A stretch of 39,571 nucleotides of DNA from NCBI GenBank assembly GCA_013298995.1, contig JAAFJW010000010.1, forward strand, positions 1 to 39,571. The letters run 5' to 3'. A program made the position numbers and the translations under genes. Every line of letters begins with the position of its first letter. The first letter of the stretch is position 1. Shown here in pieces: positions 24,610-24,846 of the stretch. Source of the stretch: Sphingobacteriales bacterium. GTDB lineage: Bacteria; Bacteroidota; Bacteroidia; Sphingobacteriales; Sphingobacteriaceae. The notes under the pieces are model-generated. The model saw only the letters and a program-made list of their open reading frames with translations, was not told the origin of the DNA and did no database searches.

Positions 24610-24634
24610 TTTATTGATTTTGTAGTAAATAAAA

Positions 24635-24658
24635 AAGGGTAACCTACTGGCAACCCTT
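24635..24658 (-). terminator. Attenuator-type intrinsic terminator in the trp leader
   Basis: Minus-strand AAGGGTTGCC-AGTA-GGTTACCCTT followed by a T run, ending about 22 nt before the trpD ATG. Confidence 0.82.
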
Positions 24659-24690
24659 CTTTTATATAAAATTAAAATACACGGTTTAGC

Positions 24691-24741
24691 CTACAATTTA
24701 ATGCAAAGCCACCAACTTATATTTGTATAATTTATTTTCAT
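24691..24741 (-). CDS. trpL: trp operon leader peptide MKINYTNISWWLCIKL
   Basis: 17-codon ORF with tandem TGG TGG (24709-24714) followed by antiterminator-capable GGCTAAACC and a terminator hairpin, upstream of trpD. Confidence 0.85.
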   Translation of the reverse strand: MKINYTNISWWLCIKL

Positions 24742-24846
24742 TTTTTGTAATGCAAATATGGTATATTTTTTGAGAATAGAAAAAGGGAAATAATTTTAAT
24801 TCACCTTAGCCACCAACTAAAAACGAGATAACCCACGGTTTCAACC

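Follow-up and report, generated by a model that had tools for sequence, protein, structure and literature searches.

The basic mechanism of attenuation by a leader peptide is textbook, and attenuators in Bacteroidetes were reportedly also listed by Vitreschak and colleagues in 2004. The RNA family closest to the element described here, Bacteroid-trp (RF01692; Weinberg et al. 2010, PMC2864571), entered Rfam around 2010. It lies upstream of the trp operon of Flavobacterium psychrophilum, and its link to Trp attenuation in Flavobacterium has been discussed (PMC6414381). A study of the F. psychrophilum transcriptome structure reports strong clues for leader-peptide attenuation before amino-acid operons (PMC9723704).

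We have analyzed a leader region upstream of trpD in a 39,571 bp stretch of DNA from a member of the Sphingobacteriaceae, the whole of which is called the window below. Taken together, the sequence comparisons and modelled folds indicate that this region is very probably a classical ribosome-mediated transcription attenuator controlling trpD-(rhuM)-trpF-trpB-trpA, the second half of a split pathway. It resembles Bacteroid-trp in its phylum, in its place as a trp-gene leader, and in its layout, in which an ORF with tandem Trp codons is followed by a 1:2 hairpin and a terminator with a 5' arm like GGCUUGUC. It differs from that family in its sub-threshold score, its two Trp codons, and its position before trpD of a split pathway rather than trpE. 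With E. coli trpL (Trp_leader, RF00513) it shares WW codons, predicted 1:2 / 2:3 / 3:4 alternatives and a T-run terminator, but the predicted mRNA is near-leaderless, there is no Shine-Dalgarno sequence, and the putative promoter is of the Bacteroidota type; moreover, trpL serves a whole operon, whereas the window attenuator would serve trpD-F-B-A. F. psychrophilum belongs to a different order and has a single trp operon, and the portion of its transcriptome study considered here (PMC9723704) gives no detailed description of a trpD attenuator.

No Rfam family, T-box and other regulatory families included, matched anywhere in the window at the gathering threshold. A permissive local search returned RF01692 over 24761-24649 at 34.1 bits against a cut-off of 49 (E 0.014-0.022) and RF00513 at 20.6 bits against a cut-off of 41; these were the sole trp regulators among the weak matches, and no T-box appeared in a local search to E 10. 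Some orthologous trpD leaders exceed the 49-bit Bacteroid-trp cut-off (L011, 49.4; L057, 53.9; L139, 49.6), and so does L233, which precedes trpE in another family (71.3 bits). Since the window copy falls short of a threshold that some of its orthologs pass, we classify it, by sequence, as a divergent new member of the already known Bacteroid-trp kind; the Rfam model misses divergent members of this sort. The same searches bear on the idea that tryptophan is sensed by some other device, either a T-box that reads uncharged tRNA-Trp or a binding site for a TRAP-type protein, and that the short ORF is incidental. Such devices do regulate trp genes in Firmicutes, but neither a T-box nor another regulatory family reached gathering here, the weak matches point to Bacteroid-trp and Trp_leader only, and what is conserved is a series of in-frame Trp codons, which a ribosome alone could read. 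This explanation is hardly credible.

The genes downstream of the leader were assigned by Pfam, which bore out the order given in a preliminary description of this DNA, all on the minus strand. The first controlled gene, trpD (24609-23617; Pfam Glycos_transf_3 and Glycos_trans_3N, NCBIfam TIGR01245), is followed by a rhuM-family gene (23573-22581; PF13310, PADLOC candidate PDC-S05), trpF (22523-21867; PF00697), trpB (21877-20696; PF00291) and trpA (20696-19920; PF00290). A flavoprotein (ubiX-like) gene lies upstream of the leader. Directly downstream of trpA there is an AAA ATPase and DUF4276 pair (19829-17718, minus strand) that resembles the PADLOC defence candidates HEC-01A/HEC-01B, and at 4725-2880 on the same strand there are three tandem, near-identical 201-aa Uma2-family genes (PDC-S03-like) that differ mainly in one internal block.

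The preliminary description had singled out the location of the leader before trpD instead of trpE. The location is correct but is no oddity, being normal for Sphingobacteriaceae. In relatives trpD-F-B-A form one operon, with trpE and trpC located elsewhere; the attenuator precedes trpD because this family splits its trp genes into two operons, both preceded by a Trp leader of their own. All 17 trpE loci of the genus carry a WW/WWW leader ORF and a terminator, while none of the 12 loci examined for pabB, the paralogue of trpE, has a Trp leader. Across the class, a Trp-codon leader precedes trpE in all 11 sampled loci, one of them from the family of the window; outside Sphingobacteriaceae the sampled trpD loci lack one, other families having a single Trp leader each, before trpE. 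The trpE leader of the genus (for example MNNQTNTKKWWWHNKIVASVILFVS in L064) is like that of the window in having a Trp-codon ORF just after the promoter and a terminator before the structural gene. It differs in its terminator, of the CCCGACGC..GCGTCGGG type, and in its region 2, GCxTCGG; thus trpE leaders (L061-L085) and trpD leaders of the same genomes are unlike in both elements.

The leader ORF of the window (24741-24691, minus strand) reads ATG AAA ATA AAT TAT ACA AAT ATA AGT TGG TGG CTT TGC ATT AAA TTG TAG and encodes MKINYTNISWWLCIKL, 16 codons plus the stop. Its tandem Trp codons (W10 and W11; 24714-24709, minus strand) are the putative sensing codons and form part of RNA region 1. 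Both the ORF and these codons had been proposed earlier, and they are upheld by the sequence and by family-wide conservation of WW or WWW. The leader peptides tested against Pfam and NCBIfam matched no profile. A second WW mini-ORF with a GTG start, VGYLVFSWWLR, lies at 24836-24801 (minus strand) and contains an exact 11-nt copy of AGTTGGTGGCT from the leader, at 24818-24808, 101 nt upstream of the leader copy. It is possibly a decayed partial duplication, or due to chance. We rejected AGTTGGTGGCT as a dispersed repeat, there being 6 copies in the genome against 2 for a reversed control. This low number, and the failure to find the upstream copy close to the leaders of the nearest relatives, G123 and G128, argue that the conserved Trp codons are not carried by a repeat.

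A consensus sigma-70 scan of the window was uninformative, as expected for Bacteroidota. A -7-like box, CATATTTG (24760-24753, minus strand), agrees by eye at 7 of 8 positions with the Bacteroidota sigma-A consensus TAnnTTTG. This box occupies -12 to -5 in Flavobacterium, according to PMC9723704 (PMC7366714 is a further source for the consensus or its position). Of 112 relatives, 105 have a box of the form AT.TTTG no more than 24 nt from the leader ATG, compared with 1.4% of shuffles; the commonest distance is 10 nt, and nearly all copies have the -7-like box 7-17 nt upstream of the ATG. Given the -12 to -5 placement, the leader 5' UTR would be about 5 nt in relatives and about 7 nt in the window, with transcription starting near 24748. 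UTRs this short are a small minority in the phylum; fewer than 10 nt are found in about 3.7% of Bacteroides mRNAs. A near-absent 5' UTR would be a testable trait of attenuators in a phylum without Shine-Dalgarno initiation.

The RNA elements follow on the minus strand. The 1:2 hairpin (24713-24683, extending from region 1 through region 2) is formed between GGUGGCUU, which overlies the second Trp codon, and AGGCU..ACC. Region 2, GGCTAAACC (24691-24683), shares its first position with the final base of the leader stop codon (24691) and has two possible pairing partners, region 1 and region 3. Region 3, AAGGGTTGCC (24658-24649), is the 5' arm of the terminator and the alternative partner of region 2. 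The 3:4 intrinsic terminator, AAGGGTTGCC-AGTA-GGTTACCCTT, has a stem (24658-24635) that contains a single U-U mismatch and a single G-U pair, and its T run extends to 24631, so that the hairpin-and-T-run feature spans 24658-24631; it ends 21 nt before the trpD start (24609). A simple terminator scan of the window did not detect this hairpin because of the mismatch in the stem. Folded without constraints, the leader RNA adopts exactly the 1:2 hairpin together with the 3:4 terminator. The energy of this fold stands out only modestly (z -1.84; 13 of 200 shuffles were equally good), and the argument for an attenuator therefore depends on comparison.

For that comparison, 151 genomes of the family were searched and 135 contained a TrpD relative, and 117 upstream regions, from Pedobacter, Pelobium and Mucilaginibacter among others, were examined. 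A short ATG-initiated ORF with WW or WxW lies within 300 nt of trpD in 109 of these, against 0.64% of shuffles, and within 600 nt in 112; a terminator-like stem and T run follow the ORF in 105 of the 109. Relatives lacking both the Trp codons and the hairpin would have spoken against the preliminary description, but nearly all have both. Exceptions comprise L053, which is a contig end, L104, whose degenerate leader has a single Trp codon, and L133, L140 and L151. The last three belong to one genus, g3, in which the Trp-codon leader before trpD has been lost and the terminator is retained in L133 and L140, making it a natural instance of loss of the leader ORF. Of 58 named or MAG loci of Sphingobacteriaceae, 57 carry the leader (all of L247-L303, comprising Pelobium, Pedobacter, Mucilaginibacter, Pararcticibacter and MAGs), and it was not found in the MAG L305. 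Nor was it found outside the family (L304, L306-L326), where a distant match in L324 lacked a T run. Most relatives have WWW, as in MKNLKVNTIWWWHYENS. The WW of the subclade of the window (L008-L010) is a derived form with a differing tail, common to the window and its two nearest relatives, whose TrpD proteins are 94% and 87% identical to that of the window.

A covariance model of the leader built without the clade of the window placed the window element first among its matches across the entire genome of 2.78 Mb (54.2 bits, E 1.6e-7) and matched 196 of 201 genomes of the order. The runner-up in the genome, C142 at 35.6 bits, was considered as a trpE leader and rejected, being an ordinary gene-end terminator; the hairpin thus supplies part of the score of the model. 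That a plain terminator elsewhere in the genome scores so well lends something to the view that the hairpin merely ends the upstream ubiX transcript, insulating trpD from read-through, and that the WW ORF arose by chance in AT-rich DNA. The stem is indeed a normal intrinsic terminator, and the fold energy of the region is only modestly better than that of shuffles. But conservation extends beyond the hairpin to the Trp ORF, region 2 and the promoter box (112 of 117 genomes, against 0.64% of shuffles), the 1:2 hairpin covaries, and the element accompanies trpD down to about 58% protein identity. We consider simple termination of the ubiX transcript very improbable.

Support for an attenuator from covariation differs among the three helices. 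When arms were exchanged among 111 sequences, with relatedness ignored, the 1:2 helix had a real energy of -8.29 kcal/mol and a permuted one of -5.55 kcal/mol (z -16.3); for the terminator the corresponding energies were -16.66 and -13.81 kcal/mol (z -14.5). With the same 111 sequences and relatedness likewise ignored, the 2:3 helix gave a weak signal (-11.13 against -10.72 kcal/mol, z -2.8). In a 65-sequence alignment the terminator showed 38 two-sided changes against 11.8 after shuffling, a number reached in 0 of 500 shuffles, and its columns are paired in 92% of cases against at most 65% for slid partners. Complementarity between regions 2 and 3 is also conserved (79.8% of cells paired, compared with 51.4% or less for slid partners), but counting of pairs revealed no 2:3 covariation, pairing being no greater than in shuffles. 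The strongest covarying position of the terminator, column 92, is unpaired in 2:3. Of what the preliminary description had expected from an alignment of trpD upstream regions, conserved WW codons and compensatory changes were found for 1:2 and 3:4, the arms of the terminator before trpD and of the pairing over the Trp codons both varying in concert among relatives; for 2:3 there were no compensatory changes.

Competing structures had been anticipated on folding, and they were obtained when a ribosome was simulated by masking the RNA through the first Trp codon plus 14 nt, or by extending the mask beyond the stop codon. With the mask at the first Trp codon, a mean of 9.5 pairs is expected in 2:3, and all 111 sequences have at least 4; with the mask at the stop codon the mean drops to 2.2, and 84 of 111 have fewer than 4. 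The stop-codon mask leaves at least 4 pairs in the other 27 relatives, the window not among them. Unmasked RNA is intermediate (mean 5.7; at least 4 pairs in 73 of 111), so that 1:2 and 2:3 do not strictly exclude each other in every relative. The corresponding values for the window are 8.5, 1.2 and 5.8. In the nascent RNA, the Trp-codon bases are paired with region 2 in 111 of 112 sequences. In these models the leader behaves as a classical attenuator, and its stop codon appears to be positioned so that a ribosome there would mask region 2. The proposed pairing of region 2 with the 5' arm of the terminator is favored by its conserved complementarity and its formation under the mask, and is without support from covariation. 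Together with covariation in 1:2 and 3:4, the masked folds favor the classical 1:2 / 2:3 / 3:4 logic suggested for this locus.

The switch would operate as follows. RNA polymerase would start a few bases upstream of the leader ATG, and a ribosome would translate MKINYTNISWWLCIKL. When charged tRNA-Trp is scarce, the ribosome would stall at the two Trp codons and cover region 1; region 2 (GGCUAAACC) could then pair with region 3 (GGGUUGCC), no terminator would form, and trpD and the genes beyond it would be transcribed. With tryptophan plentiful, the ribosome would move on to the stop codon adjoining region 2 and mask that region; region 3 would pair with region 4, and transcription would end at the T run before trpD.

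The source assembly (G000; 98% complete, 211 contigs) contains trpD, F, B and A, but trpE, trpG and trpC were not found in it; there is no TrpE other than PabB and no TrpG above the cut-off, and the trpE type of Trp leader is absent along with these genes. The gap may reflect Trp auxotrophy through recent loss, or the assembly, given that trpE and trpC are present in close relatives sharing this leader. These absences make the present physiological role of the window attenuator uncertain, and together with the two Trp codons in place of three they could mean that selection on the leader is relaxed. One might go further and regard the attenuator as a decaying relic in a Trp auxotroph that has lost both trpE, trpG and trpC and the regulation itself, citing the missing genes in a nearly complete assembly, the WW rather than WWW leader and the bulge in the 2:3 helix. 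Against this, G123 and G128 have the same derived WW leader yet retain trpE and trpC, so the derived form is older than any gene loss. The ORF, stop position, region 2 and terminator of the window are also intact, the simulated switch is strong (8.5 against 1.2 pairs), and with 211 contigs the absent genes may fall in gaps. Decay is unlikely, and we retain the reading of an attenuator that is complete in its parts.

The rhuM gene occupies the trpD-trpF junction in the window and in G123, and was not found in the other trpD contexts examined. At the same junction G128 has instead a Fic-like gene, recognized by eye from a HPFSDGNGRISR motif. The junction has the look of a small slot for insertions controlled along with trp. 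It is quite improbable, though conceivable, that the attenuator has been partly re-purposed in this freshwater-type, small-genome lineage and, with trpE, trpG and trpC absent, controls only trpD/F, tryptophan synthase (for indole salvage) and the co-oriented rhuM. If that were true, a defence-type gene, the PADLOC candidate rhuM, would be under the control of tryptophan starvation, and the Fic-like gene of G128 would suggest a cargo slot read from an attenuated promoter. For the family as a whole, the split trp pathway of Sphingobacteriaceae is very probably governed by two parallel and unlike leader-peptide attenuators that respond to one common signal.
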